From Ascaphus truei (Eukaryota; Chordata; Amphibia; Anura; Ascaphidae), in NCBI GenBank assembly GCA_036426205.1, contig CM071567.1, positions 289,851,141-289,915,140 of the forward strand: 64,000 nt of DNA, in the 5' to 3' direction. The notes beneath the pieces were generated by a model. That model was not told where the DNA came from. It saw only the letters and a list, made by a program, of their open reading frames with translations, and ran no database searches. Made by a program: the position numbers and the translations under genes. Of this stretch, positions 6,228-58,979 are shown piece after piece. The stretch's first letter is position 1. Each line of letters opens with the position of its first letter.

Positions 6228-9068
6228 ATGTACTTACCCCTACCATCATGAAGGGCGTCCTCGTCAGCATGCTACAGATCCATGTCCTCCGATGCTAGCA
6301 AGAATACATGAAAAAATATAATCTAATGGCCCCTAACCCCTTATCACCTTAGCGGTTAATAACCGCTATAGTAATTAAGGGGTTAAGCCACCCTCCCCTG
6401 CTACCCACCCAGGAAGCCTAACCATCCACCCCAGGACCACTATACCCACCCTGTACCCATTGAGTGACATAGTGGTACATCATACACATATATTATGGGC
6501 ATGATAAGCCACTATATCACTCAATAATCACCCTAATAAAAAAGCATGATGGCCAGAAATACACAATAATAAAAGGTATACACAAGTATCTAAACACCCC
6601 AATTCAATAAATAAAAGCACTAGCCAACCAATTAAATACATAAATTTAAAGCACTGGCCAACCAATCAATTTAATAAATAAAAGCACTAACCAACCAATC
6701 ATTTTAATAAATAAATGCACTAACTAACGAAACAATCAATTAATTTTAAACATTAGCCAAGAAAACAATTAATTAATTTAAACCACTGGCCAACAAATCA
6801 ATGAATTAATAAAACAACTAGCCAACACATCAATTAAAACCAGTAGCCAACAAAATAAATACTTCATTAAAAATGCTAAACAATCGGAAAATTAAATAAA
6901 AACAAGTCATCCAAATTACAAACAATTTAAGCCAAGCAATAAACAGAAAACTAAAAAACAACAATCAATAGAAAAAAGCATTTGCCAAAAAATGAATTGG
7001 CTCTCACTAAACAGGCACAGATTAATACATTATCAATCAATGGGCAATGAAAAACATAACAAGAAAAAAAAAGAAAAAAATTCAATAAAGAAACCTGTAA
7101 AAATCAAATTCCATACATTCAATATTTTACTTGCCTTTAGAAGTGTTGACCCTACGAATCCCGGCGATTCATACCGCGATGTCATCAAAGTCAATCCAGC
7201 GCCATCCACCTTAAAGAAATGGAACAGGTAACAAAATTCTTCTTTCTTTTATCTTCTATCACCGTCTACTTTCTTCATCTGTCATTATTTCTTTGTTTTC
7301 TTTAATCTTCTATCTTCATCTGTCAATCCAAAACCCAATAGTAAATCCAGAACAGGATGTTCTCTCGTTACCTTCTTCCTGTTAAATAAGGCATTCAGAC
7401 CTTATTTAGGGCCTGTGACGTCACATTTTCAGGTCTGATGGTACAGCTCCAATCTATTGGATGCTGTATCATGTGCCCAGATCCTTTTTTTGTTTTGTTA
7501 AGTGAGGTACATCACATCCTTAAAACCATATGGCTATATCACATGGTATTACAGCCAATAGGATTGAAGACAATCCCATTGGTTGCTGTACCATGTGATG
7601 GGTTCCATTAGTTCAAAAGGATGTGATATCACTTTAAGGGATGACGTCACATCCTTTTGAACTAATGTAACCTATCACATAGTACAGCAACCAATGAGAT
7701 TGTCTTCAATCCCATTGGCTGTAATACCATATTATACCATATTATATAGACATGTGGTTTCAAGGATGTGACGTACCTCCCAAAGATGTGGGCACATGAT
7801 ACAGCGTCCAATCAGATTGGAGCTGTACCATTTGACCTGAAAATGTGACAGCACAGGCCCTATATAAGGCCTGGATGCCTCATTTAACAGGAAGAAGATA
7901 ACGAGAGAACATCCTGTTCTGGATTTAACATTGGGTTTTGGATTGACAGATGAAGATTGAAGATAAAAGAAAATAAAGAAATAATGACAAATTAACAAAG
8001 AAGATGGTGATAGAAGATAAAAAAAAGAAGAATGTTCTTACCTGTTCCGGATCTTCAAGGTGGATGGCGTTGGATTGACTTTGATGACATCGCGGTATGA
8101 GAGCTTGCAGAATCACTGGGATTCGAAGGGTCAACACTTAGAAAGGTAAGAAAAATATTGAATGTATGGAATTGTATTTTTACAGGTTTTTTGATTGGAT
8201 TTTTTTTTTTTTATGTTTTTCATTGCCCATTGACTGATAAGGCCAGTTTAGGGTACAGATCAATACAGTGAGAGCCAATTCATTTTTTGTCAAATGCTTT
8301 TTTTCTATTGATTGTTGTTTTTTAGTTTTGTTTATTGTTTGGCTTAAATTGTTTGTAATTTGGATGGCTTGTTTTAATTTCATTTAACAATTGTTTAGCA
8401 TTTTAAATTAATGATTTTTTTTGGCTACTGGTTTTAATTGATGTATTAGCTAGTGGTTTTATTAATTCATTGATTTGTTGGCTAGTGATTTAAATTCATT
8501 AATTGCTTTTTTGGATAATGTTTGAAATGAATTGATTGTTTTGTTGGTTAGTGAGTTCATTTTTTTTAATTGGTTGGTTAGTGCGTTTATATATTAAATT
8601 GATTGGTTGTTTAGTGCTTTTATTTATTAAATTGATTTGTTAGTGGTTTTATGTATATTTTTAATTGGTTGGCTGGTGCTTTTATTTATTGAATTGGAGT
8701 GTTTAGGTGCTTGTGTATATCTTTTATTATTGTGTATTTTTGGCCTTCATGGTATTTTATTTAGGGTGACCATTGAGTGATATATTGGCTTATCATGCCC
8801 ATATTATATGTGTATGATGTACCACTATGCCAATCAATGGGTACAGGGTAGGTATAGTGGTCCCGGGGTGGGTGGTTAGGCATCCCGGGTGGGTATCGGG
8901 GAAAGGTGGGTTAACACCTTAATTACTATAGCAGTTATTAACCGCTAAGTTGATTAAGGATTTATGGCCCATTAGAATGTATTTTTTCATGTATTCTTGC
9001 TGGCATCAGAAGACATGGACCTGGAGAATGCTGAAGAGGATGCCTTTGATTATGGCAGGGGTAAGAAT
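6228..9068. repeat. 2.8-kb foldback palindrome
   Basis: The left arm (6228 to about 7640) is repeated in reverse complement in the right arm (about 7640-9068). Examples: CTTACCCCT...CAAGAATAC at 6229-6308 matches GTATTCTTG...GGGGTAAG at 8990-9066; the AACCGCTA block at 6356 matches 8935; GCATTCAGACC at 7390 matches GGCCTGGATGCC at 7869. The centre is near 7640 around GATGACGTCACATCC. The arms differ by substitutions and small gaps and their inner halves are AT-rich. There is no coding frame. It belongs to a foldback family also seen at 20660-21830 and 29050-30250. Confidence 0.85.
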
Positions 9069-9600: not shown

Positions 9601-10115
9601 TAATCCTGTGTGTAAAAAAATTAAATATGGTTTTATGTGGGGGTACAGAGGGTGGGTTGTGTTTTGGTGGTTATTACATATTTTAATTTAAATTTTATTA
9701 CTACTGCTGAGGCGCATCTGAGTCTAACACATCACCGGTTTTTCCCTGGCTTTTTCCTGGAATGCGACGCACTTTACTTGGAGCATGCCGCATTCATTTT
9801 GCGTTCTCAGCCACGGGTCATGCGCGGTTGACGCGCGGTTGATGCGTTTATTGAGAATGGTTCGGATTTAATAGGTTGCAATTCTTCGCGTGTCCGCCAG
9901 ATGGCAGATATTCATGAATTGTAATGCGCATGCGCTTCAGTAATGTGTCGACTTGCAGGTGTTTCGTTTAAAAAAGATACCACAGTGTGCTATTGTAACT
10001 TGGCCTTGAGACTGAAGGAAGAGGTTGCAAAAATGTATCAATTTAGGCTCTTCATATTAAAGAAAGACAACGACCAGTTTCAGTTACAGTATTCTCCAGA
10101 GACCCGCCGCCCACC

Positions 10116-10691
10116 ATGAGTGTTCAAGTGCAGCCCGTTTTCCAAAAACCCGACAGAAGTTACGCGTATTTGATATGGGCCGCGATTAATGCAACAGATG
10201 ATAAGATGACAACAGTTGTTCAAATTTATCAGTATTTTATCGAAAACTATGACTTTTGCAAATTTTCGCCAGCTCCTCATACGTGGAAGCGTGCAATAAG
10301 GAAAAGGTTATGTAGCGATCCCTGTTTTTATCGTATTGAACCACAATTTGTTGGAGGGTATTGGTGTGTATCACCGGCTTTTTCCTGTATCTATGATCAT
10401 GCAGACGGCAAAAGGCGAAGGGTCGTGTTAAAATCAACTAAGAAACGACAGTCGCTTCCAAGCAATGCACCGGCACCGGCTTTCGATAACGGTCCCACCG
10501 TCAACCCTGAGCCTGAGTCGGATTTCGCGTGCAGTTTCGATCAAGCTTGCATGTACCTAAGCAATTTCCAGCCTCATCAGCTGACTACAGGTGGACTAGT
10601 CCCACTGCAAACTATCGACGTGGATGATCAAGAACACTGGACTGGCAATGGACCGGCGTCGGCGCCAGCTGAATGGGAAATGCTATGGTGA
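10116..10691 (+). CDS. Forkhead-like winged-helix protein encoded in the transposon
   Basis: ATG at 10116 has a good context (CCCACCATGA); the frame encodes 191 residues to a TGA. Residues 11-87 follow the forkhead pattern: KP..SY..LI at 11-20, AI at 23-24, T...IY at 33-38, F at 47, W at 57, IR..L at 61-65, F at 71, and GGYW...P at 80-87. In forkhead helix 3 the conserved NSIRH..LS is replaced by RAIRKR.LC, so the usual Asn and His base-contact residues are absent. Residues 88-191 are basic then acidic/proline-rich, like an activation or interaction tail. GTGAGT at 10688 overlaps the stop and could be a splice donor; a strong acceptor (polypyrimidine then CAG) ends at about 11019, but joining them gives a stop at the junction. 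A poly(A) signal AATAAA lies at 11251. Function is inferred: nuclear DNA-binding factor of the element. Confidence 0.7.
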   Translation: MSVQVQPVFQKPDRSYAYLIWAAINATDDKMTTVVQIYQYFIENYDFCKFSPAPHTWKRAIRKRLCSDPCFYRIEPQFVGGYWCVSPAFSCIYDHADGKRRRVVLKSTKKRQSLPSNAPAPAFDNGPTVNPEPESDFACSFDQACMYLSNFQPHQLTTGGLVPLQTIDVDDQEHWTGNGPASAPAEWEMLW

Positions 10692-11700
10692 GTATTGTTG
10701 CCGTATTATTTTCTGTATTTTTTTTATTTTGACAATACAGTATCAATATCGGTGCGATTCAAAAGTCAAGCGATTCTCCTGTAAGCAATATCATTGGCTG
10801 AACGGCTTCTAAAGTACTGTACTGCAGATACTGAACAATTGGTGGAACGCTAGGTGCATGCGCATTGGAACCTTCTTGAAACGCATATGCGTATCATTAC
10901 ATCCACGGTAGGCGCATGCACATGTGAACAGGAGATGCCCCCCGAGAAAATTATTGGTGGGACTGGCTGGGAACTTCTTTAGACCATTACAGTAAAACTT
11001 TTCTTTTTGTTTTTCCTCAGAAAAGAAAGCGGCTAATGGAGGGATTTCGATGGATAATATCACTTTGTGTAACAATGCCTGCACATTGCTGAATCGGATT
11101 TAAAAAGCCACGTACCGGAGGCTACAGTATAGTGGCCGTTGTTATTGATTAGGATAGAATACTGTACCTGAAACAGTATGCTGATGTTTTCCGGCCGTAC
11201 AGTTTACAATACTTTTTTATAAACAGTATACTGTGTATTAAACCCGAAAAAATAAAAACTATGCATTTATTCTACATGTATTACAGTACTGTACATACTG
11301 TACAGTATGTGTCTTCTATACAGTGCCAGTACATACAGTACAGTACTGTATGTGTCTTCTATATTTTTTTTATACTCTTGTACTGAGCATGCCTACAGTA
11401 TACAGTACAGTGTGCCTGAAAAGTAGTGTACATTCTAGAAACACTGTATTTTGTTACAGTAGCAAAGGAGCCAATGGAACAATGTAAAACAAATCAACAT
11501 GTTCTTTTATTGGTGGAGTAAGTACAAAAACATTTATTTACAAATACTGTACAATGTAGAAACATTTTAAGTGCACAGCAATTCAAAACATCAAAAGGTG
11601 TATGGTTTACTGCTACAGTAGTGAAAACATTTATGTATACAAAGTAAAAACATTTACAGTCAGTCACTATGGTTTACAGTCACATGTTTTAAAAACAAAT

Positions 11701-12262
11701 TCTTTATTCATAAAATATACAAAACGCAACATCTCCTTTATTAAAGTCAAAACATATACAGTGGGATGTTGTGCAAAACAGTCTGCACCAGTACAGTCCT
11801 CGAGGGCAGCAGACAGGCCCAGTTTTCAGGACAACCTTGAAAACCGTGCCTGTTTGCGGCCCTCAGGGACTGGAGTTGTGCAGGTCCTGTGTGTGTGTAC
11901 AGCAAGTTAAAACATTTCTGTATAAATACAAGTTAAAAAACACACAACAACATCTCCTTTATTTAAGTACAGCAGGTCAAAACATGTACAATACAGTTCA
12001 GCACAACAGTATGGTCTTACCTGTGATTAAAAAAATCTTTATTCATAAAATACAGTATACAAAACGCAACATCTCCTTTATTAAAGAAACATATAGTATA
12101 CAGTACAGTGGGATGTTGTGCAAAACAGTCAGTCAGGCATGCACCAATACAGTCCTCGAGGGTAGCAGACAGGCCCGGTTTTCAGGACTACCTTGAAAAC
12201 CGTGCCTGTTTGCGGCCCTCAGGGACTGGAATTGTGCAGGTCCTGTGGGTGTGTGTACAGCA
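11701..12262. repeat. Tandem duplication of about 340 bp downstream of the BEN-like gene
   Basis: The block at about 11701-11910 (CTTTATTCATAAAATA..., then TCCTCGAGGG..AGCAGACAGGCCC and GTTTGCGGCCCTCAGGGACTGG) recurs at about 12041-12262 with few differences. On the minus strand these units contain AATAAAGGAGATG, so they supply repeated poly(A)-type hexamers beyond the BEN-like gene; the nearest is at 12310-12315. Small ORFs here are not coding. Confidence 0.7.
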
Positions 12263-12471
12263 AGTTAAAGCAGTAAGTTAAATATAGTACAGCAGGTCAA
12301 AACATCTCCTTTATTTAAGTTCAGCAGGTCAAAACATGTACAGCACAGTTCAGCACAACAGTATGGTCTTACAGTTCCGTGATTAAGCCATAAAGTCCAC
12401 CACATTGTCCATCCATGGCCGATTCCTTGCATGGCGCAAAACGCCATTAATGCAGTCTCGAACGCCTTTCA

Positions 12472-13823
12472 TTACAGGATCTGTAATTGGTTAAAACGCC
12501 GCATTTCATCCAGAATGTTCTTTCTTAAATTGGAAGGAAGCGCCTTTTTTACGCGATTTCCGTCGTAGTTCACTCTGAAGGCCCAGTCGCAGTACAATGA
12601 GTAGGGAACATGGTGCTTAAAAAGTAACAAGGCATACTTGTGGGGTGCACCTGCACTCATCACCCTATACTTCTCCCTGAGCGTCGGTGGCAGATCGCAC
12701 AGGGTGATGTCGGGCACTGTATCGATGCGAGTGAATGTAGGTCTTCTGCGAGCGGGTGTGCTTGAGGCGACGGGCGATGGTAGGTTGTCTGGGAGAAAGC
12801 TTTCCTCCGATCTTGGTCGCTGTATTGTCTCCTGGCGTGGTCTTGACGGGATTGTCATGTCCTTCTCAATGGCATACATGTACACTACATCTTCTGGTGG
12901 AGCGGTTGTGCTTGGTGATGGAAGGGGGTCGATGCTCCCATTCATCACATCCATGTCACCCCCCTGCTCCGGCATCGGGGAAACAGGGGCATTAACACCG
13001 AGCAAATTATGTATAACCGCTATGTCAGCCTCTATCTTCTCCATCCGTCGATCCATCCGTTGATCCATATCTAGCATCCGTTGATCCATATGTATCATCC
13101 GTTGATCCATATGTAGCATCCGTTGCTCCACATTTAACATGGTCTCCAGAAGCAAATCTATCTTTGCTAGCACAATAGAGTTCCCGGGGAGATCCACACT
13201 TATCCCATTCAGCATCCGGTCTAACGATCTGCTTCTTGTGCATGGCGTGTGGACATCTGGGTGGATGGGTGCAATGGAGGATGAGATGGGGGTTCTATGG
13301 AGAGAAGCGGCAGCGACGTCAAAGAAGGGTAGAAGAGGTGACCTGTGGATGTCCGGTAGAGGAGAAGCGGCAGCGTCGTCGAAGAGGGATGGGGAAAGTG
13401 ACCTTTTGATTTCCGGGCGAGAAGCAGAGTCGTCTAAGAGCAAAGGAGAAAGTGACCCGTGGATTTCAGAGGCGGCAGCGTCGTCGGATAGAACCGGAGA
13501 AAATGGCCTGTGGTTTCCGGGAGGGCGGCGGCAGTGTCGAGGACGAGGGGTGGAGAAGACGGGCTGAAGATTTCCGGGACAGCGGCGGCAGAGTCGTCGA
13601 AGCGTATGTGAGGAAGTGGTCTGCGGGTTCGATGGGTTGGCTGCCAATCGTTTTGCGTCGAGAGTACATCACCGTATATATTCTTGACATAATAAGGCTG
13701 ACTTCTATGAAAACCCTTAGCCTTTGGGGTCAGCAGAAGGTTTTCTTTATTGGCCTTAGCCTGTCGCTTTTGCCTTGGTGTGGAAACGGCAACCGCCTTT
13801 CGCTTTTTCTGCTTGACAGGCAC
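12472..13823 (-). pseudogene. Coiled-coil protein with C-terminal BEN-like domain
   Basis: Minus strand, ending at 12472. The C-terminal 70 residues (YALLLFKHHVP..., NYDGNRVKKALPSNLRKNI) fit the BEN domain pattern: hydrophobic helix, G-x-(R/K) turn, LP/LDP followed by an I-rich helix. BEN domains bind DNA or mediate chromatin interactions. Upstream is a heptad-like stretch of repeated MDQRM (about 13020-13135), then proline/serine-rich repeats with the word DDAAAS (13290-13640). A basic N-terminus (KQKKRK, RQKRQAK) looks like a nuclear localisation signal. The N-terminal part is in another frame: one frameshift lies at about 13520. The most likely start codon at 13821-13823 is GTG in a GCC.CC context, suggesting a mutated ATG. 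It faces the forkhead-like gene tail to tail. An alternative to BEN is an unrelated helical domain. Confidence 0.55.
13290..13640. repeat. Coding minisatellite of about 57-60 bp
   Basis: At least five degenerate units built on GGCGGCAGCGTCGTCG and GA(C/T)..GTGGATTTCCGG encode a repeated Ser/Pro-Asp-Asp-Ala-Ala-Ala block in the BEN-like protein. The frameshift in that gene falls inside this array, so unit slippage is a plausible cause. Confidence 0.7.
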
Positions 13824-13955
13824 GGCAGAGGCGAGTGGGTTCCTGCGTCAGTAGAATCGGGGTTGCTCCATGGAAGCAGGTGGCACAATGCAATATCTGG
13901 ACAAGGGCAAGTTCAGATAAAGATCATCGAGTGGTGGGCTATGCAAAGTGTGTAA

Positions 13956-14897
13956 CCTTTTATGCATGGCAGCGAGGTACAGATGTTGAAAGTATGCGTA
14001 CTCTAATGTGAGTCATTACAGTATAAATACACCATCCATTTTGTGGATTCACGGGCTACGGCCCCAGTCTTATTGCAGCACGCAGCCCTGGTGGCGCGTG
14101 CACAGTTGAAAACCGCATTGTGCTGTCTTTAGGGGAGTGATGGGATGGGCGGGGCCATGATGGGGGAGGGGGGGCATGACGTGACCATGCACCAAGCTTA
14201 AGCCTATAGGGAACCATGTTTAAAATGGTTTTCTAGCAAAAAGTGTCACTGTGTGCTCATTTGCATGTCATTTCCCAGAATCCCTTGCTGCAGTGGAAGT
14301 GCTGGGTGATAATGGTGAAAGGCGGGGTTGCAGACCTGCCCAAGACATGCAAATGAGCATACAGTTATATTTCCATTTGCTATATGCTTTGCTGTGGAGG
14401 GTTTTTGTCACTTTTTTTTACTCACCATAATGTTACTAATGATCACCATTGCCACTGATTCACCTTCTACCCCATCATTGATGTATGGTATACAGTGAGC
14501 TAGAAATTACACACATTGAACTGCCTCTAGTGGATGTATATATTTTATATAGTGCTCCAGTGACGTCATCCATTTCAGTTAGCCTTCACTGCCTTACACC
14601 ATAGGCATTGACTGTGTGCTACCTATAATTTATAGTGCTTATGTTAAGTTTTCCAACTATTTTGGATCAACTATTTGGCAATTTGCCCTAATAGCACCAT
14701 TTGTATTCTGTTCATTCCATTCACCATTTAATCTGGTACCATTTTTAACCAACATTAATAAAGCATACTCAAACACTATTTACAGGTTTGGTTCAGATTA
14801 TTCCTATGTTGTTGCTTTTTTACTAGGGTGACTTACCCCTCAGATTTTGTGTGCATTAATAGGGCCTTATCTGTATGCTCTGTGTCTCTACATCATA
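13956..14897. other. No gene recognised
   Basis: AT-rich sequence between the BEN-like gene and a MITE. It contains a G-run block (GGGGGAGGGGGGGC near 14164-14178) and two copies of ATGCAAATGAGC-like text around 14263 and 14347 in opposite orientation. No domain or splice-supported frame is visible. Copy A suggests that the transposase belongs near the right part of this stretch, but no match to it is seen. Confidence 0.5.
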
Positions 14898-15229
14898 CAG
14901 GCATACCCCGCATTAACGTACGCAATGGGACCGGAGCATATATGTAAAGCGAAAATGTACTTAAAGTGAAGCACCACCTTTTTCCCACTTATTGATGCAT
15001 GTACTGTACTGCAATCGTCATATACGTGCATAACTGGTGTATATAAGGCATTTGTAACAGGCTCTATAGTCTCCCCGCTTGCGCACAGCTTCAGTACAGG
15101 TAGGGAGCCGGTATTGCTATTCAGAACGTGCTGACAGGTGCATGCATGAACTGCCGTTTGCAAATTGGGCAACATGTACTTACTCGCGAGTATACTTAAA
15201 GTGAGTGTCCTTAAAGCGGGGTATGCCTG
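14898..15229 (-). mobile_element. MITE with CAGGCATACCCCGC termini
   Basis: A 332-bp element flanked by TA on both sides (14896-14897, 15230-15231). The ends are CAGGCATACCCCGC and GCGGGGTATGCCTG. The inside has AAAGCGAAAATGTACTTAAAG. A second copy, in the opposite orientation, is at 22003-22334. It has no coding capacity; frames spanning it are shadows. TA flanks suggest mobilisation by a Tc1/mariner transposase. Confidence 0.85.
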
Positions 15230-16129
15230 TACAGTGTTCTCTGTGTTCTGAACAGTTTTTTCTTTACAGAAAGAGCAGCACCAGCCATCAGGTTACAGTA
15301 CATAGTATTTAACAGTAGTAAGAGTATAGAGTTGTTCCAGTATACAGTAGACTAGTTTGACAGTACTACAGTAACTGCCTACTAACTGCTCAATTTTTTT
15401 TCAGAGAAAGCAGCACCAGCCATGTACAGTAGTACTACACATCACACAATGCCATAATACAGTACGCACATAACTTCACTAATTTTTTGTTTTCTTGTCA
15501 TTTCAGGAAAAAGGGTGGCCTGGGGGGAGGTGGGGTATTGTGTCCAGTCTAATATGCTTGTACAGTCAAATGTACAGTATATAAACAGCAGTAATGATGT
15601 ACACAAAACCTTTCTTGTCTCAATGAACTACTGTACTGTACACAGAATGAGGAACAAGATAAAGACGGAAAAAATAATATTACTATATATATATATTATA
15701 CATTACAGTATATATTATTAAATAATATTCTTATAAATGTGCATTATTCATGTTTCCCCATGTTTTACAAATGTTTTCTAAATGTTTATCCAATTTCAAT
15801 CTGCCAGAAGAACTTAATAAAGACAGCATTATGTATTATTATGATTATTTTTATATTTGTATTTTTTGTTTCCTGATAAAATAAAATGAATATTTATTCA
15901 CATTCCTGCTAATCATAATCATTGACAACAACCACAAACCCCCACCCCACCCTTCAGTACACCAATGAATAAGAATGAATGACAAAACAACATGAATCAG
16001 TTAATGTTTTTTTTAACTCTCAATTCTCACAATGCTGTGCAAATCAAATTTACAATTCAAAATCGAGAAGGGATTTTCCAAAGCGTTACCGTAAACTAAG
16101 CCTCAAAGGGTTGGGGGGAGGGGGGTTGG

Positions 16130-17210
16130 GTGAGTCATGTGCAGTAATCAGCTAGCTCCCATCTCAAAGAGGATTACACAATGGCAATATTCACAAAATT
16201 AACGAATCTGTGGAGTGAGGGGGTTGGGTGACTCATGCGCCGTAAGCAGCAAGCTCCCATCTCTAAAAGGATTAGAGTACATGCAGGCGCAGTGAGGCGA
16301 TTGACGCTCAGCTAGGGACGGATTAAAAACACAATGACTAACTAACTTCAGAAAAAGAATGACTCTGTGGAGGTGTCTGTCGATAAGAGTTTGTGTGTGT
16401 GTGGGGGAGGGATGAAGGATTAGTCGTGCAGCAGTTCAAAGAAATAACATACTGTACTGTAGAGTACAGTAATTTCAAAAGGCAGTTCATCATAATACTG
16501 TAATTTGATCCCTACACCCCCCAAATACAGTACATAAAAAGCACACAAATTAACCATGTGCAGGCAAATGCACAGATTTAATATCGTAATATCAAGATTG
16601 TTTTTGCAGGCTTGTGGATAAAATAACAGTTAAAAGTTACAGTCGCATGAGCAGGAATAAACTAGCTCCCATCCGAAAGAGGATTACACACAGGCGCATA
16701 GAGAGGTGATGCTCTGTGCAAATCAAATTTGAGAAGGGATTTTCCAAAGCGTTGCCGTAAACAAAGCCTCAAAATTCCCATCTCAAAGAGAATTACACGC
16801 AGGCGCAGTGAGGCTTTGTAGCTCGGCTATGGACGGATTCAGAACACAATGGCAAGATTCAGTAAATTAACGACTCCATGGAATTTCAAATCCTTGAGCT
16901 AGCGTTCGTGGGGGAGGGGGCTACAGGGTACAGCTGCATGAAGTTCAAAGCTAAAGACATACTTTAATTTCAAAAGGCAGTTCATCATAATAATACACCC
17001 CCAAATACAGTACGTAAATAGCACACAAATCAACCATGTGCAGTCAAACGCACAGGGTCGCAGTCAAAAGCTACAGCACAGATTGAATATCGTAATACAG
17101 TAAAATGGTTTTTGCAGGCTTGTGGAGAAAAAAAAATTACAATAAAAAAATTTTTTAAATTTTTTTTGGTCACTCACTAAGGCAAGCAAGCAGTGGTGGG
17201 CGAAGTTACA
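16130..17210 (+). repeat. Subterminal repeats of the large element (copy B)
   Basis: Two to three diverged units resembling those of copy A: AGCTCCCATCTCAAAGAGGATTACAC at 16152, 16240, 16660 and 16775, followed by an (A)CAGGCGCA(G/T) core near 16279, 16690 and 16800, then T-rich or A-rich runs and GGGGGAGG words. Further on, a region at 17350-17410 (GAAATGTGACACTGTTACAG) matches 2277-2300 of copy A. Confidence 0.65.
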
Positions 17211-17769
17211 GGCGCATGCGCAGTACATTCCTGCTGTCAAGCAGGAATGTGATTGAAACCAGACACACGTTCAAAGGAATGGTGTGGGAGAGATGTACTG
17301 CATTGCACAGAAGATAAGAAGTTGAAATACCCTGCAGTGCAGTTAATTATCCTGAGTGAGGGGAGAGCGCTGTATATGCCGAAATGTGACACTGTTACAG
17401 TACTGTACACGCCTATGCGTTTCAACAATTTTCAAATGAGACATACTGTACAGCAGCACAGCACTGCAAATGCATGTATACTTTAAATTTGCAAATTTAC
17501 AATTATTGCACGCGCACACACAGACTGTATACTGACGTAGGTTGAACCGCGAAGGTATTAGACTTCCAAGACAACAGCTCGCAAACGCCCCCCTGAGTTT
17601 TAACACGGCATTGCAGTATTGCAGACAGCGAGAATAAAATGCTAATATCACGAGCGCGAAAATAACGCAGTTCACTCCGGGCGAAAACGACAAAAAACGC
17701 ACCTAACCGGGATAATCTGAAAGCCGCGGATCTAGCCGACTTAGACTCAGATTGGCCGCCACTGTAGTG

Positions 17770-21830: not shown

Positions 21831-22002
21831 TGTATTTATTTATTTTTGGTATATCATTTCTTGCCACTGTATGTATGTATGTATGTATGTCTAGATCGAT
21901 ATATAAATACAGGGTAAGAAATGATGTTGTTTTAAAAGCTTGATTTGCTGTGTTTTAAATTATTTTGGCTATGCTGCTATGCATAAATGTGTGTGTCATG
22001 TA

Positions 22003-22334
22003 CAGGCATACCCCGGTTTAAGGACACTCACTTTAAGTACACTCGCGAGTAAGTACATATCGCCCAATAGGCAAAAGGCAGCTTGCGCATGCGCCTGTCA
22101 GCACGTCCTGAACAGCAATAGTGGCTCCCTGCCTGTACCGAAGCTGTGCGCAAGCGGGGAGACTATAGAGCCTGTTGCAAATGCGTTATTTACATCAGTT
22201 ATGCAAGGATATGACGATTGCTGTACAGTACAAGCATCGATAAGTGGAAAAAAGGCAGTGCTTCACTTTAAGTACATTTTCGCTTTACATACATGCTCCG
22301 GTCCCATCGCGTATGTTAATGCGGGGTATGCCAG
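22003..22334 (+). mobile_element. MITE with CAGGCATACCCCG termini, second copy
   Basis: It begins after TA (22001-22002) with CAGGCATACCCCGG and ends at GCGGGGTATGCCAG. The sequence is the reverse complement of the MITE at 14898-15229, with substitutions. The right terminal base and TA are altered, so this copy is probably the older or more decayed one. Confidence 0.8.
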
Positions 22335-25380: not shown

Positions 25381-26640
25381 TCATACCAGAGTACTGGTAT
25401 CCAGACATTCATTAAGACCCCCGGGGGTTAGTGTCCCCAACCGGTGGATCCAGAATGTCTCCCTTCTACACAAAGATTTAAAGCGATCCCCCCCTAGAGC
25501 ACAAGGAGGAATGTGATCAATACCCATAATACTCATGGATCCAGGATCCTTGTGATGTACAGATGCAAAATGTTTGGGTATACTATGGGTGTTGACTCCA
25601 TTGATCACATTCCTCCTATGCTCCAGGAACCTGGTACTAAGGGGTCGTGTGGTGCGACCTACATATTGAAGGCCGCAACCACATTGCAGGAGATAGACGA
25701 CAAATGTAGTCAGGCAGTTGATATTGCCCCTAACACTATATCATCCACTCCTGAGATGGGAGACAAACTCCGATTTGGTATTTAAATGTTTACATGTAAT
25801 GCAACGGCTTCTGCCACATCTCTGGTTACCCACCTGGCCCAAAGATGTAGCATCGGCAGTCACAACTAATGGTCTCATATTACTAGGAGCTAAAATGTTT
25901 TTAATGTTTTTTGCCTTCCTGTATGTAATAGGTATTTTCTCTGGAAGTATGTTACCTAAATGTGGATCGCACTTTAAAATGCTTCAATGAGTATTAAGAA
26001 TACCCTGGATAGATCTGTGGGATTGGTTGAAGGTGGTAATAAACCGTGAAACCCCATCGGTGTTTACTGATCTTTTCCTTGGTGCCTTGTAGCTGGTGTG
26101 TTTAATTGTAGAGCACTTATTAAGTAGCAATGATCTATCGGTGGCCCTTACCTTGCTGAAAGAGTCACAGACAAGATCAGGATCATATCCCTTCAACAAA
26201 AATTTGTTACTCAGTTCTTTTGATTGGTTAATAAAGTCACTTTCCCTGGAACAGTTTCTTTTGAGACGATGAAACTGTCCCAGGGGGATGCTCCTGAGCC
26301 ACTGTGCATGGTGGTTACTGGATGCATTAACATAATTGTTAACTGCAACGGGCTTGAAATGTGTGGTAGTAATGATATTACCATTTGGATCTGAAGTTAA
26401 AATAAGATCCAAAAATACCACTGATTTTGGACTGATATCAAATGTAAATTGCAAGCCCATATCATTGTGATTGAAGGATTCCAGGACATTGGAAAAAACT
26501 GTGAGATCACCCTCGCAAATGATAATAATATCATCGATGAAACGGCCATAGAATACGATACCCCCCCAGCTCCAAATTTTGCCAGACAGATGTTTCTTCC
26601 CAAAATCCCATAAAGAGATTGGCATAGCTGGGTATATCTG
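25381..26640 (-). pseudogene. Penelope-like RT (C-terminal half) and GIY-YIG endonuclease, downstream tandem copy
   Basis: The frame runs from RT through to the endonuclease. It contains the RT catalytic motif as FIDDIII, the fingers/thumb sequence FDISPKSVVFLDLIL, a basic linker, and the endonuclease ending ...GGLNECLDTSTLV at 25381. The GIY-YIG block (LLQCGCGLQYVGRTTR-like) lies near 25640-25690. There is one in-frame stop, TGA at 25984-25986, where the other copy has Trp (after ILNTH). At the upstream edge, just after the truncation at 26637, a small frameshift separates the first residues. The long proline-rich N-terminus in the same frame is translated 3' UTR and not part of the protein. 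Confidence 0.75.
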
Positions 26641-26968
26641 TGTGTTCTGACATTCAAAACTGCACACAAACATGATGATGACTAATACTGCATCAATGCA
26701 TGATGAGCGCAAAATTCTATCTGCCCTAACACACAGATAGAGTAAAAAAGCGTTTTCCATACAGGATATTAATATGGTATAAAGGAAAGGGGAAGTGGAA
26801 GGGAAGGGTAGGGAAGGAATGGGGGAAAGGGAGAGGAAGGGGGGAGGGGGGGAAGGGGAGGGAGGGAGGGGGGGAAAGGGGAGGAGGGCAAGGAAAAAGG
26901 GAAGAAGAAAAAGGCCAGAGATGGGGGGGAATGGACCAAAGAGCACAAAAACAGACCGAACCTATAGC

Positions 26969-28563
26969 TCATACCAGAGTACTGGTATCCAGACATTCAT
27001 TAAGACCCCCGGGGGTTAGTGTCCCCAACCGGTGGATCCAGAATGTCTCCCTTCTACACAAAGATTTGAAACGATCCCCACCTAGAGCACAGGGAGGAAT
27101 GTGATCAATACCCATAATACTCATGGATCCAGGATCCTTATGATGTACAGATGCAAAATGTTTAGGTATACTATGGGTGTTAACTCCATTGATCACATTC
27201 CTCCTATGCTCCAGGAACCTAGTACTAAGGGGTCGTGTGGTGCGACCTACATATTGAAGGCCGCAATCACATTGCAGGAGATAGACAACAAATGTAGTCA
27301 GGCAGTTGATATTGCCCCTAACACTATATCGTCCACTCTTGAGAGGGGAGACAAACTCCGATTTGGTGTTTAAATGTTTACATGTAATGCAACGGCTTCT
27401 GCCACATCTCTGGTTACCCACCTGGCCCAGGGATGTAGCATCGGCAGTCACAACTAATGGTCTCAATTTACTAGGAGCTAAAATGTTTTTAATGTTTTTT
27501 GCCTTCCTGTATGTAATAGGTATTTTCTCTGGAAGTATGTTACCTAAATGCGGATCGCACTTTAAAATGCTCCAATGAGTATTGAGAATACCCTGGATAG
27601 ATCTGTGGGATTGGTTGAAGGTGGTAATAAACCGTGAAACCCCATCGGTGTTTATTGATCTTTTCCTTGGTGTCTTATAACTAGTCTGTTTAATTGTAGA
27701 GCACTTATTAAGTAACAATGATCTATCGGTGGCCCTCACCTTGCTGAAAGAGTCACAAACAAGATCAGGATCATATCCCTTCAACAAAAATTTGTTACTC
27801 AGTTCCTTTGATTGGTTAATAAAGTCACTTTCCCTGGAACAGTTTCTTTTAAGACGATGAAACTGTCCCAGGGGGATGCTCCTGAGCCACTGTGCGTGGT
27901 GATTACTGGATGCATTAACATAATTGTTAACTGCAACGGGCTTGAAATGTGTGGTAGTAATAATATTGCCATTTGGATCTGAAGTTAAAATAAGATCCAA
28001 AAATACCACTGATTTTGGACTAATATCAAATGTAAATTGCAAGCCCATATCATTGCGATTGAAGGAATCCAGGACATTGGAAAAAAACTGTGAGATCACC
28101 CTCCCAAATAATAATAATATCATCGATGAAACGGCCATAGTATACGAGACCCCCCCCCAGCTCCAAATTTTGCCAGACAGATTTTTTTCCCAAAATCCCA
28201 TAAAGAGATTGGCATAGCTGGGGGCAAATCTCGTCCCCATGGCCGTTCCACAGATCTGTAAATAATAAGAATCCTCAAATAAAAAATAATTGTGATTTAA
28301 TATAAATGTAATACTATCTAATATAAATTTCTTGTGAATAGTAGGAATAGAGGAATCCGTGCTCAGCCAGAAGTCTATGGCTTCGATCCCCCTGGAATGA
28401 CCTAGAGATGTGTACAATGAGGACACATCACATGTGGCCCATAAATAACTGGGCTTCCATTTAATCCCGGAGATGGAGTCGATGACATGTAGCGTATCCC
28501 GAATGTGTGACCTGAGCTTAGCTACAAAGGGTTGGAGATAATAATCCACATACTGGGATAGGC
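26969..28563 (-). pseudogene. Penelope-like RT and GIY-YIG endonuclease, upstream tandem copy
   Basis: An apparently open frame of about 530 codons begins after the inverted terminal sequence with the RT segment SQYVDYYLQPFV (the 5' part is missing). It continues through a D-V-SSLYTS motif, MGTRFAPSYANLFMGFWE, the linker, two Cys pairs (RCGRSRCITCKH), the GIY-YIG domain (VVYLLQCDCGLQYVGRTTR) and EHR. Compared with the tandem copy it has two extra C in a C-run near 28150 and one extra A near 28081. Together these keep the frame open but replace the segment holding FIDD. So the ORF looks intact while the RT active site is out of frame. Confidence 0.8.
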
Positions 28564-28605
28564 CAGATTGATAAAGTTGCAGTATTGTGACGAAACGCGT
28601 CAGGG
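28564..28605 (+). ncRNA. Hammerhead-like motif, inverted partner
   Basis: Plus-strand partner of 24529-24570: box TTGATAA, the same stem II GTTGCAG/TTGTGAC, then GAAACGCGTC and AGGG. Stem I has decayed on its 5' side because the truncated RT begins there. Confidence 0.4.
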
Positions 28606-28937
28606 ACGTAAAATAACGACATTACGTCATCACGTTGTCTGCGTGCTTTACGGCCGGAGCATGTAGGATTGAATTTGAGGCCTACTCTGATGACACACTG
28701 CGTGGAGGACTTCAATTGATTGCGGATAAGAGCGGACACTATCGGATGCACAGCACAAGGGTTCCAGTTGGATTCCAAGACTTCACGGGACGGCCTGCAT
28801 CGGTGGTGATATTATTGTCACAAATTGCTTTATTTTCACATATTCTTTGTAAGTGTTTTTAATCCCCACCAACCCCCCTCCCCCCATTAAACTGTACAGG
28901 ATCACACTATGGGGCGTGCACTCTCTCTTTTGTTTTT

Positions 28938-28939
<2 letters not shown>

Positions 28940-28980
<41 letters not shown>

Positions 28981-28996
28981 TATATATATATATAGT
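28940..28996. repeat. AT microsatellite
   Basis: (TA)n interrupted by CTCTG, at the outer edge of the Penelope inverted terminal segment. The left partner shows only a short A-rich run. Confidence 0.9.
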
Positions 28997-29049
28997 TGCA
29001 TGATGAAGCCACTGTATAAATGAATGTGTGAAGGGTGGGTATCGGGCCA

Positions 29050-30250
29050 GTGTGGCTTAACCCCTTAATTACCTTTGCGGTTATTATCCGAGAAAGTGTT
29101 TAAGGGGTTAATTGATATCTGAATGTAATTGCAATGTATTGGCTATGTATTGGCTATGTATTTTGTGGGCAATGAAAGACAAGGATGTTGCTGGCGACAG
29201 GGGCTTCTTATTGATGAGGTCAGTAGTACTGTATTAATTTTAATATGCAAGTTAATGTGTTTAATTATGAGCAAATAATCTATTATCCCTATCTGGATAA
29301 TAGTTATTTTGCACATTATTGTACTGTAGGTGTTTGGGGGGGGAGGGGAGGTGATGTATGTATTGAATGTATAGGCCAGGTTTATTTTTTTTACATTCAG
29401 GGTTTGTTCCTTGGTTCTGTGTGGGGGCACCGCGGAGCCGTAGGTGCGGAGATGAACCGGTGGTCCCACATCCGTGGGGGCACCGCGGACATGTAGTGAG
29501 CACTCGTGAGTTCCCCAGACCCCTGTGAGAACCACCCGAGGCCCCGCAGACACCTGTGGGTCTGACCCGGGGCTCCCAGACATCCGCGGGCCTACCGTGG
29601 GGACCAAATTGTGGCCCACGGTGTCCCAAGGAGACCACCTGGGGGCCATGGCACTTGGCGGAACCCACCAACAGGCCTCCATAACCTGTGTGAAACATGT
29701 TGCTGGTACCCTGTAGGTCTGTCAGGTGACCCGCCAGCCCGTCGGGGACTCGCGTGGGGCTGGGGTATGAACCCTGTATGTAAAAGAATAAATCATGTAT
29801 TTATGGGGGGGGGCACAGGGGGTGGGTAATGTATTTAATAAATAGAATGATGCTTATTGTGGGGCAGTGTATTGTTTTTATTGTGGGTACTGGGGGTGGG
29901 GGGATGGGGTATTGGCCCCAAGGGTATGTGGGTAAGCATCCCTTGTGTGTAGTGGGTGAGGGTGGTTAGGCCTCACGGGGTGGGGGGTTAGTGTGGGAGG
30001 GTATGTAGGCCTCCCGAGTTGTGAGTGAGGGTGGGTTAACCCCTTAATGACTGTAGCGGTTAATAACCGCTATGGTGATTTAGGGGTTAGGGGACATTAC
30101 ATTGGAGGTTTTTATTCTTGTGTGTTTTTTGCAGCAGCGGAGGGGGCATGGCCATGATGAAGATGAGGATGGCCTTCATCGTGGCAGCCGGAAATGGGTG
30201 AGTGCTATATGTATTTAATGTATTGATTGGTGTTTATGTATTTTAAATAC
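29050..30250 (-). repeat. Right arm of the large inverted repeat
   Basis: Inverted match to 20660-21830. It carries in order the AACCCCTTAATT block, the TATTATCC..GGATAATA pair, the GC-rich minisatellite, GGGACTCGCGTGGGGCTG, and the GGGTTAACCCCTTAATGAC...AACCGCTATGG block. 29143-29230 (CAATGAAAGACAAGGATGTTGCTGGCGAC) matches 21770-21815. Confidence 0.85.
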
Positions 30251-30386
30251 ACAGGGTGTGTATGTTGTTTATTGCAATGTTTATTGGGGGCAAATGTCCC
30301 CAATAAACATGCTATTCTGCCTTAACCCCTTCATTGCCTTAGCCGATATCCACTATGGTAATGAAGCAGCATTTATGTATTTTAAT

Positions 30387-30660
30387 AATATTGTGCAGAA
30401 GAAGAGGGGCTCCTGAGCTGAACCGCATTGATTTGTGGCTCAGAGACCCCCTGCTTCCCGAATTACAGGCCCCGGTTTGGGGCATCAGTTACAGTGTCGC
30501 CGCCATATTTATAGCAGGCACGGCGCGAATGGGGTGCTATAAAGATGGCGGCGACACTGCCACCCGATGATACATACCGGGGCCTGTAACTCGGGAAGCA
30601 GGGGGTCCCTGGTCCACAAAGCAATGCAGTTCAGCTCAGGGGACCCCCTGCTCACAGTGC
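30387..30660. repeat. Hairpin repeat 1
   Basis: Inverted arms: TGAGCTGAACCGCATTG...CCCTGCTTCCCGAATTACAGGCCCCGG on the left and its complement, CCGGGGCCTGTAACTCGGGAAGCAGGG...GTTCAGCTCA, on the right. The loop holds TGTCGCCGCCAT and its complement. No coding sequence. Confidence 0.8.
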
Positions 30661-30761
30661 ACTATTATTAAAAAAAATTCATGCTGCTTCGTTACCATAG
30701 CACATAGCCGCAAAGGTAAGGAATGATTTTTTATTTATATATGTGTTTTACTCATAGTGTA

Positions 30762-31010
30762 GATGTGCAGAGGTCTCCGGAGCTGAACCGCTTTGGTTTT
30801 AGGTCCGGGGACCCCCTGCTTCCTGAGATACAGGCCCCTTTATGGGGTGACGGTATCCCTCTGCTTTGTTTACATTCCGCGGTCACGTGATCGGGACATG
30901 ATATGCAGAGGGATACCGGCACCTCATAAAGGGGCCTGTATCTCGGGAAGAATGGGGGTCCCCGGACGTGAAACCAATGCGGTTCAGCTCCGGAGACCCC
31001 CTGCACATGT
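30762..31010. repeat. Hairpin repeat 2
   Basis: GTGCAGAGGTCTCCGGAGCTGAACCGC to ATACAGGCCCC on the left is mirrored by GGGGCCTGTATCTCGGGAAG to CTCCGGAGACCCCCTGCAC on the right. The centre contains CGGTCACGTGATCGGG. It is related to hairpin 1 and to the half-copy at 17770. Confidence 0.85.
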
Positions 31011-32598
31011 ACACTATGAGTTAAAGTTGTTTTGAAATGTTTTTATTTTGCCGATGTTTGCGCAGAGAAAGCGGCGGGTCTCTCTCTGCTGCAAACACAT
31101 ATCGGCAGAAACGGCCTATCGCCAGGTTATCGGGAGCCAGGATTTTTTATCACCGGCTCATCGGCGTTTTGCTTTCGCAGAGATTCGGCAGGGATCGGCA
31201 TGGATTCGGTCCTTACTGAATATTGCGAGGGCAAATCGCCCAAATCATGCCTATCGGCAACACTTGCCGAAGAGATTTTTTCGGCGCTTAGTGCATGAGG
31301 CCCTAAGTCTCTGTGACTCTCCCTGTTTTTCATCTGGCATCTTAACAGATCATTAGAGTCTTGTACTATTAATTAAAGTGCTTGTTTGGCATTTATTAAT
31401 ATTTTGAATGTGAATAAAGTGCTTTTTGTAGATGAGTTAGTGGGCTTGCCAGCAGATACAGCAACTGTCACTGATGGCAGTAGTTGTGGTTGTACTGGCT
31501 AATCCCTAGTGTTAGAAAACTAGGAGAAAGCACACCCTTTTGATAGCACTCATTGTATAATATGATATGATGATGAATTTAAAATCAAATTTTAATGATA
31601 TTAAAAATAAAAAAAAGGGGGATAAATGTGTATGTGAAACTTGATACAACTAAAGTGTATAGGAGTGAATATGTCACTGAGGTGACTAAACATATAAAAC
31701 AAACAGAGACGCTATATACATTAATGTCAAAAACTGAAACAAAGGGGATATCATGAAAAGCAATGAAAAATTAAACTGATAATATTTATAAACTCAATAG
31801 GTCACAGTCTTTCATGGATAACCCCTAGGTACAGCACTAAAAGTATATATTAAAAAACCTGTATATAGTAGACAGGTAGCGTAAAGACTGATAGTGTAAA
31901 TGCTTAATAATAAATTACGTATATTTGTTCCTTCAAAGACCTACAATTATGCAATAGATGGTAGAATACCTCATGTGATAGCTATTTTACACAGACACAC
32001 AAAATGTGTTAGAATGCCTAGAGGCACGAATCAATGTTCGTATCAATTTATAGCCTCATTAACAAATAAATAGCTATTTGAAATATACAAATATATAGCC
32101 AGTGCAATAAGCACACAAAGTGTGTAAATATAGCTCAGAGGCACGGATCAAGTCCGTATCAAGTTATAGCCTCCTAAATAAATCTATTATGCACTATTAG
32201 TAAAAAGCAGGTCAATAGCTCACAAAGAGTCAAAAATATGTGGTCAGGAACAAGTATATCGCAGACAGACAGGGTGTTCAAATAGAGTAACACACAACTG
32301 GTAAATCAACCAACATCAATATTGGCTAGATGATGTGCCAAAAGGAGCAATCAAAAGACACTGCAACTGTATCTAAGTAAATGCCTCATATATTGCTACT
32401 ACCATCGTCACAGAGTAGCATTAATTCAATTCAGTTCAGTGTCAAAAATACAATCCAGGCTCGGCTGGCAACTTTCAAAGTGTGTGTGTTTGTATCAGAC
32501 CTGCAACGTAGCGACTTGCGGATCCTACCGGCACTCAGATGTGCCTATCACCCTTGTTGCTGTGTACAGACGTCATGACGTCAGTCTAGTCCCGCCTC

Positions 32599-32640
32599 CC
32601 ACCTGACGTACGTTTCGCAGAGGCGCTTTGTCAAAGGTGG
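32599..32640 (-). ncRNA. Hammerhead-like motif in Penelope terminal repeat
   Basis: Minus strand: six-pair stem I CCACCT/AGGTGG; box TTGACAA; stem II GCG/TGC with loop CCTC; GAAA; palindromic stem III CGTACG; cleavage-type UC. All hammerhead elements occur in order, but the catalytic box deviates from CUGANGA at positions 3 (U) and 8 (A). Confidence 0.5.
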
Positions 32641-32979
32641 TGACGCCTAGATCGACGGAGGAGGTATTTATATGCAGCTAATCACCAATGGAGCAGTGAT
32701 GTCGGGCAGCTGAGATTAACCCTCTTATGGCTACTAGACAAACTTGAATAGCGGAGAGACGATATTAATATGAAGGGGTAGAAATAAAGAATAAGTCACA
32801 GTTAGTGTCTTAAAGACACAGTGTATTCATTTTGTCAGAAAGACTGTAAGGGTTCCAGATGCGGACAAAGTGAAGTCTTTACCAGGTAAGAATAATGATG
32901 TAGATGAAAATATGGAGAGAGTTAGATTAAAGGAAGGATATCACCTCCAACAGTGACTTAACATATCATCAGATATAAT

Positions 32980-35900
32980 TTAAATAAAAGGAGAAAATAG
33001 AAAGCCCTCATTAATCCCTCTTGGTGCTAATATACCAAAGGTGTAAATCCATTTGGATTCTTTCTGGAGAATGAGACGATTCCAATCACCGCCTCTCGGA
33101 TTAGGGGGAACACTTTCTATTCCCAGGAATTGGAGATTAGTGGTGCCTACTTCATGCACTTGATGGATATGGTTGGTCAGGGGTGTATCAAGATGGTTAC
33201 GAATGGTCCCCAGATGTTCTAAAATACGTTGACAAAATTCTCTAATTGTTTTGCCAATGTACTTTTTGTGGCATTGACATATCACCTGATAAATTACACC
33301 TTTGGTTCTGCAGTTTATAAACTGCCTCACCGTAAAGGACTTACTGCACCGACACACTTTATTCGAGCAAATACCCAGTATGTACCTGGCAGATACCTGG
33401 AATGCGCCGCTCCTCACCTCTGACAAGCCCCGTTGCATTTGCCTTCCCAGCCTGGGTTCATGCCTGGCTGACAGGCGGCTGATCTGTTAAATGATAATGA
33501 TTAGGATTTAATAGGCTGCAATGCTTCGCGTGTCTACCAGATGGCATAAATTCATGAATTGTAATGCAGTATATATATATATACTGTGCAGTATTGCAGC
33601 CAGCGGGAATAAAATGCTTCAATCCCTGTCTGGAAAATAACCCAATGCACTCGGGCAGAAAACAGTCACAAACCTCAATACACCCGGGTATACCCGAATT
33701 CGTGGGACTAGCCGAGCTCGAATAAAGTGTGTCGCCAGTGTAATATCATTCCAGTTTAAAAAGGTTTTGGTTGGAGATATGTGTGCGCAGGCTTTTGCAG
33801 CCCTGGCATTTGAAATTGCCAGTAGACCTATTCAAAAGCCAGGTGTTGAGTACGGGCGGCCTTACGTGGCTATGAACCAATTTAGCTTTAAGGTTCAATG
33901 CCCTTCTACTGACCAGTGTAGGTGTAGATTTCAAGACTTCACTCAGGCCTTGGTCTTCAGTAAGAATATACCAGTGTCTGATCAGTATGGTATTCATTTC
34001 AGTTATTATTATATGTTCCTACAAACCTTGAGTTTAGAATCTTGAGATTTGTCTCGATTATGACTCAATAAAGAGTTTCTGTCTGTGAATTTGGCTCTCC
34101 GATAGGCTTTTAAAATCGATCTTTGACTATAGCCTTTCTCTTTAAACTTCTTTCTCATCTTAACTGCCTCAATCGCAAAAACTGTTAAAGTCGAGCAATT
34201 TCTGTGAATTCTCAGAAATTGACTGATAGGGATACCTTCCTTTAGTCGTCTCGGGTGAGGACTTTCATAGTGTAGAAGACTGTTGGTGGCAGTAGTTTTA
34301 CAATATATAGTCGTTTCTACTCTGTCATCAACACCTCTCGAGATTTTGAGATCTAGGAAGGTTATTTCCTGTGAGCTGATCTCATAGGTCAGGTGCAAAT
34401 TGTATTCATTGGTGTTGAGAATCTTGATGAATTCAATAAACAACGCCCGTGTCCCCTGCCACAGGATCAGGACGTCGTCTATATAGTGGATCCACAGTGA
34501 GATATGTGTCGTAAATATCTCATTAGCTTTCTGGAAGACCACCTCCGCCTCCCACCAACCAAGATATAGGTTGGCGTAGGTGGGGGCGCAGGTGGTCCCC
34601 ATTGCCATACCTCTAAGTTGGTGATAGATAGTACCGTTAAAGGTGAAGTAATTGTGGGTCAAGATGAACCTCAATAGGTCCAACACCAATTGATAGTGTG
34701 TTTTACAAATTCACAGCTCCTGCTTTTGAGAAAATAGGCCACAGCCTCTATCCCTATTTGGTGTATGATAGAGGTATAAAGGGATTCTACATCAAGACTA
34801 ATTAGTAGAGTTTCTCCATCTAGGGTGATATCGTTAAGTCTATTTAAGGCATCTTTTGTATCTCTTAAAAAAGATGGTAAAGTGTTGACAAAGGGTCGCA
34901 GTATCTGATCAACATACTTACTACTTTGTTCAGTAAGGTTCGGAGATATCGGACACAATTGGTCTTCCAGGTGGGGGCGAAATGCCCTTATGTATTTTCG
35001 GCAGACAGTAGAAAGTTGCCAAAACTGGTGTTGATGTTAATAGTTGGTCATATTCTTTTTTTGAGAGTGTCTTTGACACTAGACCCAAGTCCAATATTTC
35101 CTTCAGTTCCCTTTGGAACTGTATGGTAGGACTCGTCTTTAAGATCTTATAACATTTAGTATCGGATAGGAGTCGGGTACATTCTCTGATGTAATCGTCA
35201 GTGTTCAAAATCACTGTATTGCCTCCTTTATCGGAAGGTTTTACAGTGATATTCGCATCATTTTGCAGATCTTCCAGGCCTTGACATTCCGAGAGAGACA
35301 GATTGTCAGGCATCTTTTTAGGGGTCAGACTCTCCAAGTCTTTAATAACCAACCTCATGAACATTTCTACATTTGGGCTGGTCCATGGGGGAGGTGTAAA
35401 TTTAGACCTTGGTCTCAGATCTGAGAATGGACCTTCACCCTCAATCCTACTTGACACTTCAAGGAGTGCAGTGAGGTCCCTCATATTATGAATATGTAAT
35501 TGATCAAGATGATCAAGACCTTCATTTTTAAGTTTAAACAATTCCCTATATTTTAAAGAATTTATGAAGTAGGAGTTTCCTCCCAAACAGGTTTGTGTCC
35601 TTTACCCAGTCAAAAATATGAAAGTTTTCTGATGGGGAAAATGACAAACCCTTGTTCAATGCACTTATTTCATCTGTGGTTAATAGTTTCTTGGAGATGT
35701 TAATAACCTGATTGTCATTAGAAGTAGTAGTGCCTATCTGCGTCTCCTGAAGTGACGCTGTTGTCTGCCCCTGTACACCCAGACGTTTCTGTCTATCAAC
35801 CCATCCCTTTTGTCCTCTCCGGGTTTTCCCTTTTCGTAAAATAAGGGGTATCTTGGTCCCGGTTCTAAAAAATGCATACGGTCCAAATCAGGTTTGTTAA

Positions 35901-51830: not shown

Positions 51831-51954
51831 GATTTGCAGGCTTTAGTATTGCAATCGGTCACGTTTATGTTGCTGTTTTTATAGTTAGACACACCGGGGG
51901 GAATGGAGCTCACACTCTAAGCTTCCATTCACCTCTCCGTCGACACGCCCCCTC

Positions 51955-54170: not shown

Positions 54171-54229
54171 ATGGTTCTCTTGAAACAACCCTCTCTCCTT
54201 CTCTTTCCTCTCTAATGGCCCATCGGATT

Positions 54230-55462: not shown

Positions 55463-55550
55463 TACCTTCCCCCCCAGCTCAGACCTAGTAGGATAAGTGA
55501 CCGTGCACACCAGTGAATGCATTCTTGATAGGCCACCTGCATTTCCTTGT

Positions 55551-57770: not shown

Positions 57771-57774
57771 TTAA

Positions 57775-58220
57775 AGCTGCAGTTCAGTCTTTTTTTTTTT
57801 TTAATTTATTTTTTTACTTCAATAGTTTCATGTGTGCAATCTCTAATTACCTAAAGAACTGTATAGCTGCAGGTCAATTCGTTCTCCATGTATTGATAGG
57901 CGAAATTTGGTGACATAATTAGTGAATGGATCTGTTTTTCTTCGAATCTGTCTCTCAGTGGAAGCTCATGAATATTCATGAGCACTCCTGCACTGACATG
58001 TGCTAGAGGGAGGGCAGGGCTGACAAAGGGGTGTGCCAGGGCTTGTGACTGGACATGAAGGGGCTGTGCCTTAGCAAATGGCTGTTAAAATAGAATACAA
58101 GAAAATTGGTCTTTCAAAGTTGTTTTTTTAAAAACAGAAAATGCTAAAAGTATTTTTTCTTACTACAGAACTGATTTATTTAAAAACACACACATGCAGG
58201 ATATTGACTGAACTGCAGCT
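57775..58220. mobile_element. TTAA-flanked MITE
   Basis: A 446-bp element with 15-base inverted ends AGCTGCAGTTCAGTC/GACTGAACTGCAGCT, flanked by TTAA (57771-57774, 58221-58224). There is no coding frame; it starts with a T-run. TTAA duplication is typical of piggyBac and Kolobok. It lies exactly at the boundary between integrase tail (HVNLLK) and linker (PWKERE) of the Gypsy element. Confidence 0.85.
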
Positions 58221-58224
58221 TTAA

Positions 58225-58544: not shown

Positions 58545-58546
58545 CA

Positions 58547-58977: not shown

Positions 58978-58979
58978 TA

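Follow-up and report, generated by a model that had tools for sequence, protein, structure and literature searches.

A DNA transposon of the tailed frog Ascaphus truei was examined in a 64,000-nucleotide stretch of assembly GCA_036426205.1 (contig CM071567.1, forward-strand positions 289,851,141 to 289,915,140), which is referred to as the window and numbered from its first base. An initial annotation, made from the letters alone, had placed an 8-kb Tc1/mariner-like element with forkhead-like and BEN-like genes at 9704–17764. The features of this element and of two relatives in the window are given below; L numbers designate sequences fetched from elsewhere in the genome.

9704–17764 (8,061 bp): the 8-kb element, with TA immediately outside both ends.
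9704–9727, + strand: left terminal repeat CTGCTGAGGCGCATCTGAGTCTAA, with TA at 9702–9703.
10116–10691, + strand: forkhead gene, encoding 191 amino acids (aa) in the window copy, with the domain at about 10143–10382 (matches to Pfam PF00250 and to PDB).
About 12389–13871, − strand: reverse-strand accessory gene, its frame broken in the window copy, with an ATG-started open reading frame (ORF) at 12472–13215.
14053–15251, strand not applicable: stretch replacing the transposase of other copies, unalignable to L014 or L020 and, against L022, unalignable from 14026.
16053–17160, strand not applicable: right subterminal repeat arrays, with units recurring at a spacing of about 480–670 bp.
17741–17764, − strand: right terminal repeat CAGTGGCGGCCAATCTGAGTCTAA (reverse-complemented), with TA at 17765–17766.
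1–2730, + strand: truncated related copy, with the last transposase exon at about 44–250, subterminal repeats, and a right end flanked by TA (2731–2732).
33344–33740, + strand: internally deleted 397-bp relative, with left and right arms fused, its own inner terminal repeat, and TA on both sides.

The element at 9704–17764 is real and precisely bounded, and its structure is secure. A search of the 2.82-Gb genome found its first 297 bp in at least 40 places at 97–100% identity (the best 40 of 2608 first-look candidates). Twenty of these left-end matches were fetched, with 10 kb each and four extended further, and in 20/20 the left end started at the same base after TA while the flanks were unrelated, so the ends are not a product of chance. 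The window element is one member of an abundant DNA-transposon family, and the fetched copies represent its subfamily A; since they were drawn from the best matches to the window, their closeness to one another is partly selected. The right end was located in nine of the 20 and in the window copy, and nine of these ten had an intact right tip with TA on both sides, the tip of L027 having diverged; no right end was found within the fetched stretch of the remaining 11. The nine copies with two intact ends ranged from 4,924 to 11,559 bp, and their two 24-bp ends were alike at 18–19 of 24 positions (18 in the window element). The ends, the flanking TA and the recurrence between unrelated flanks thus bear out the boundaries initially proposed. 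Also confirmed were the subterminal repeats, as the right-hand arrays, and the related copy at 1–2730, which has both a transposase C-terminus and a right end with TA directly outside it. The terminal bases of that copy, judged by eye, were like those of a second subfamily (B, below), and no left end was found for it within 10 kb upstream.

The forkhead-like ORF at 10116–10691 was upheld by a match to the Pfam forkhead domain (PF00250, E = 1.2e-14, residues 10–89, 54.6 bits against a curated cut-off of 27). Forkhead chains in PDB matched the protein from E = 1e-9; the best of them was FOXL2, and the forkhead class is not assignable because several FOX classes scored close behind. One database protein matched the gene, and it came from A. 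truei. The protein is 191–193 aa long in subfamily A and about 206 aa in subfamily B.

On the same strand as the forkhead gene, longer copies carry a transposase gene of five exons, whose splice sites were placed by eye for phase fit in L021, a copy with one frameshift. The joined product matched the DDE_3 model (E = 3.3e-16) and 76 database proteins, with relatives annotated as Tc1-like DDE transposases, and residues D150, D233 and E266 give a DD32E spacing. The D, D and E residues were retained in all six two-ended copies that have exons 3–5 (L013, L014, L019, L020, L022 and L025), and the aligned exon stretches were free of stops in five of the six, with a small indel or a shortened match in L020 and L022. 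Comparison of exon 5 of the 1–2730 copy with the majority of 13 family sequences from 11 copies gave a ratio of nonsynonymous to synonymous substitution rates (dN/dS) of 0.28, a point value without a confidence interval over 69 codons. The encoded protein is presumably an active transposase. In five copies (L012, L013, L015, L021 and L025) the first transposase intron, before exon 2, is an AT-rich minisatellite that reads as long YIYFVYLYLYYNS-type open frames.

Among 55 sequences surveyed for spacing, the query included, 37 were DD34E, 15 DD32E and three DD35E. The superfamily signatures given in the relevant passages of PMC8533490 are DD34–41 E/D, and the DD32E of this family falls outside them. 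A literature search pairing DD32E with mariner found no paper, and the DD32E group may be unnamed. Fish Tc1-like DDE transposases (Larimichthys, Polypterus and Danio si:dkey-77f5.3) were 42–47% identical over 87–99% of the query, and DD32E where the spacing was measured. Two related transposases of Larimichthys crocea (P0013 and P0022) are predicted to be fused to other protein sequence, P0013 being named a BESS-domain protein; the fusions might be a trace of neighbouring genes in those fish elements.

The reverse-strand gene is a genuine gene of the family because three database proteins, all from A. truei, match it. Long frames of 477–541 aa, stop to stop, were present in L010, L014 and L026 among the 21 copies, window included. 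The predicted protein has a repeated MDQRM-type stretch and a C-terminal domain, and it had no match in Pfam or PDB. As regards the BEN label, the six genome places found with the Pfam BEN model did not include this gene, and hhalign against four host BEN domains gave an E value of 0.16, with column-shuffled controls scoring as high in 71 of 300 cases. An AlphaFold model from four sequences of the gene was helical, with a mean predicted local distance difference test (pLDDT) score of 46, and was unusable for fold comparison. The C-terminal motif is taken by us, as an unconfirmed lead, to resemble CCDC106/BEN-like fish proteins. The opposite-strand gene therefore stands and its BEN identity is not supported; likewise, of the two DNA-binding accessory proteins that had been proposed, one, the forkhead protein, is shown to have a known DNA-binding domain.

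The forkhead gene was retained, wholly or in part, in all 20 fetched copies. The region of the reverse-strand gene (query 12472–13950) was matched over more than 300 bp in 14 of them, over 54–131 bp in three and not at all in three; in L019 and L025 the match was only an edge lying beyond the gene. A transposase C-terminus lay inside the first 10 kb in 11 of the 20, and seven (L012, L013, L014, L015, L018, L020 and L022) had forkhead sequence together with the transposase C-terminus and over 300 bp from the reverse-gene region. Four of the nine two-ended copies (L013, L014, L020 and L022; 9.8–11.6 kb) held parts of all three genes, the reverse-strand gene being nearly full in L014 and L022 and partial in L013 and L020. 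The three genes thus recur together between the same TA-flanked termini, a check that the initial annotation had called for, and its suggestion of an unusually large Tc1/mariner-type element holds for the family. For the 8-kb element itself the forkhead and reverse-strand genes are present; the transposase is absent there and present in longer copies, the window copy being a deletion derivative.

Tc1/mariner elements typically carry the transposase as their sole gene. The present family has the TA target duplication, the terminal inverted repeats and the Tc1-type DDE transposase of the superfamily, and departs from it in the non-defining properties of size and gene number (4.9–11.6 kb and up to three genes). 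The typical size given in the part of PMC8533490 that deals with it is 1.3–2.5 kb.

Subfamily B was found in at least 150 places (the best 150 of 22,107 first-look candidates), 149 of them at 85–94% identity to P0001, and one of the A. truei database proteins was matched at 100% over 110 aa in the genome. The B left ends begin CAGCCGCGGCCCCTTTTATTCTCC, about 410–441 bp before the forkhead start codon; eight of the nine examined followed TA and that of L054 followed CA, L057 being left out of the count as its left part is rearranged. B and A are colinear for up to 2.8 kb from the left end, and the forkhead gene holds the same place and strand in both although their ends differ. Forkhead residues 16–52 are identical between the subfamilies, most of the changes within the domain lie near the recognition helix and the wing, and the inner terminal repeats differ. 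No transposase was found in 4 kb of the B copy L058 (stretch L061), because L058 is a deletion derivative. When the coordinates of 149 transposase, 150 B forkhead and 40 A left-end places were compared, all from top-scoring lists, three pairs lay within 12 kb of each other against 0.24 expected if independent; in two the transposase lay downstream on the same strand, at 4.9 and 6.0 kb, and in the third the strands were opposite.

The Pfam forkhead model was also run over the genome, and its best 150 places of 12,894 candidates comprised 21 at 107–141 bits, taken as host Fox genes, and 129 at 73–94 bits. Ten of the 129, picked for stop-free frames, were fetched. All ten carried a forkhead domain and fell by eye into at least five groups, with 30–44% identity to A and B and with recognition helices that were mostly near-canonical. 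Two members of one group, L070 and L075, both started CCA(G/C)TGTGTTACAGTTA directly after TA, about 300 bp upstream and beside unrelated flanks. These two copies weakly suggest that this group, the only one so linked, also lies at one edge of a repeat flanked by TA; the divergent groups may ride the same kind of element or be host genes in part.

In nine of 12 forkhead pairs the bootstrap upper bound of dN/dS was below 1, for example 0.15 (0.04–0.39) and 0.21 (0.08–0.43); the pairs in which it was not were L070/L075, L069/L074 and A/B. These codon comparisons show purifying selection acting between several of the divergent forkhead groups in the genome.

One interpretation, which we favour as on balance probable, is that this is a three-gene Tc1/mariner-type family that has retained its forkhead protein as a self-encoded regulator or transposition cofactor. 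The five-exon DDE transposase would act on the short terminal repeats and insert the element at TA by cut-and-paste. The forkhead protein, whose gene lies beside the left end, would be kept because it is useful to the element; it would most likely bind element DNA, at the ends, the subterminal repeats or the promoters, and once bound would either activate element genes or help to assemble the transposition complex. The reverse-strand protein could be a second, poorly understood cofactor. Analogous helpers are TnpA in Spm and the Myb-like protein in Harbinger elements: Spm/En and Harbinger-type two-gene transposons likewise pair a transposase with a DNA-binding helper, which in Spm binds subterminal repeats, but they belong to other transposase superfamilies with other target sites, and their helpers are not forkhead proteins. 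Candidate binding sites were sought in the arms of six copies, with 200 first-order random sequences as the control. The motif CAGGCGCA was enriched, with 4–6 occurrences in the right 2.1 kb against fewer than 0.1 expected, although these are not independent because they lie partly within duplicated units; GCGCATGCGC was present in the left 400 bp of five of the six.

Several observations weigh against a retained regulator or cofactor. The FOX recognition helix has the consensus WxNSIRHNLS, and that of A and B reads WKRAIRK(R/K)LC, departing from it; nor were GTAAACA, RYAAAYA or GACGC enriched in the arms of the six copies. Of the nine constrained forkhead pairs, three had saturated synonymous sites and a fourth a synonymous divergence (dS) of 2.0, and the pairs overlap. 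Between A and B no selection was detected (dN/dS 0.85, 0.47–1.75, for the gene and 0.60, 0.26–1.99, for the domain). Within A, shared and singleton changes were alike (p = 0.71) in a 39-row alignment, a weak test because the alignment included truncated copies and CpG decay. Finally, the fetched A copies were the top matches to the window and are a non-random sample.

Some of these points fit an alternative that we consider unlikely, though still a serious one: long ago the transposon captured a Fox gene of the host, and one more gene, and has carried them unneeded, their amplification being due only to its own. Such passengers would leave no significant constraint between A and B or in the changes shared within A, and would decay, as the forkhead frame has in most A copies (open to its end in four of 21, namely L011, L024 with an overrun, L027 and the window copy); copies missing parts of the accessory genes have, moreover, spread as well. 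Against passenger capture, the position and strand of the gene are constant in A and B, its frame is kept in four of ten B loci (L052, L053, L056 and L058), and the nine constrained pairs argue for retention, though mostly in groups without an established carrier.

It is decidedly improbable, in our view, that the accessory proteins act on the host, the forkhead protein for instance turning on germ-line genes or countering silencing and thereby securing expression of the element where its insertions are heritable. The near-canonical helix of the other forkhead groups could bind ordinary forkhead sites, which are not enriched in the A arms, but subfamilies A and B themselves lack the canonical recognition residues. 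Nested repeats do occur, as in L022, which contains a reversed small derivative. A composite artefact, in which a different element bearing the forkhead and reverse-strand genes had inserted into a plain Tc1 element, has next to no probability: it is already contradicted by these genes, whose order, orientation and spacing from the left end are the same among the fetched A copies and in B, with its different ends.

A broader picture, less likely than not, may be drawn tentatively. The lineage could harbour an ancient and varied set of many Tc1/mariner-type elements, each with its own forkhead protein recognising its own ends, the recognition part changing along with the terminal repeats, and the set would go on supplying the host with new forkhead genes. 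Equally tentative is the part of this picture in which the forkhead groups, at least seven in number with A and B counted, would have diverged, to 30–44% identity to A/B, with the fold kept.

Judged by gene layout, the closest precedent would be the TBE elements of Oxytricha, which are three-gene Tc1/mariner elements of a ciliate. As described in passages of PMC4724952 and PMC12242761, they too add two genes, one reversed, to the transposase, and their accessory genes are under purifying selection; unlike the present family, they encode a zinc-finger/kinase protein and a 22-kDa protein rather than a forkhead protein, in a ciliate rather than a vertebrate host. Mariner elements of algal viruses also hold a transposase and two extra genes between TA-flanked ends, but the extras are nucleases, methyltransferases or Fanzor, and the passages of PMC3627910 that describe them mention no forkhead. 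Multi-gene Tc1/mariner elements are thus already known, with other helpers and, in the passages concerned, outside vertebrates; the forkhead-bearing form is a new variant. A literature search, with subscription journals and Repbase outside its scope, found no forkhead-bearing transposon.

Elsewhere in the window, the two 24-bp ends of the 397-bp relative at 33344–33740, which are of the kind found on the 8-kb element, agreed by eye at 19 of 24 positions, and their inner sequence was unlike that of the 8-kb element's ends; by these ends it appears to be another subfamily. A repeat nested in the 8-kb element at about 14900–15233 recurred reversed at 21999–22332 with 90% identity, and its ends look, we presume, like those of a Tigger/pogo miniature inverted-repeat transposable element (MITE). 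A 2.8-kb palindrome (foldback) at 6233–9065, with arms 83% alike, is probably another repeat family. Numerous degraded ORFs of retroelement-like character (by eye, reverse transcriptase, integrase and others) lay at 25984–36529, 45247–48127 and 51910–62927.

The presence of accessory proteins in Tc1/mariner elements has been termed surprising, with the TBEs as the case in point, in a section of a 2025 paper (PMC12242761). A vertebrate forkhead-bearing family would add an independent, high-copy case for studying the function of such helpers. Its existence would further imply that the fold of a developmental transcription factor has been multiplied in many mobile copies, from which new regulators could arise, and that Fox genes in such genomes have to be counted with care.

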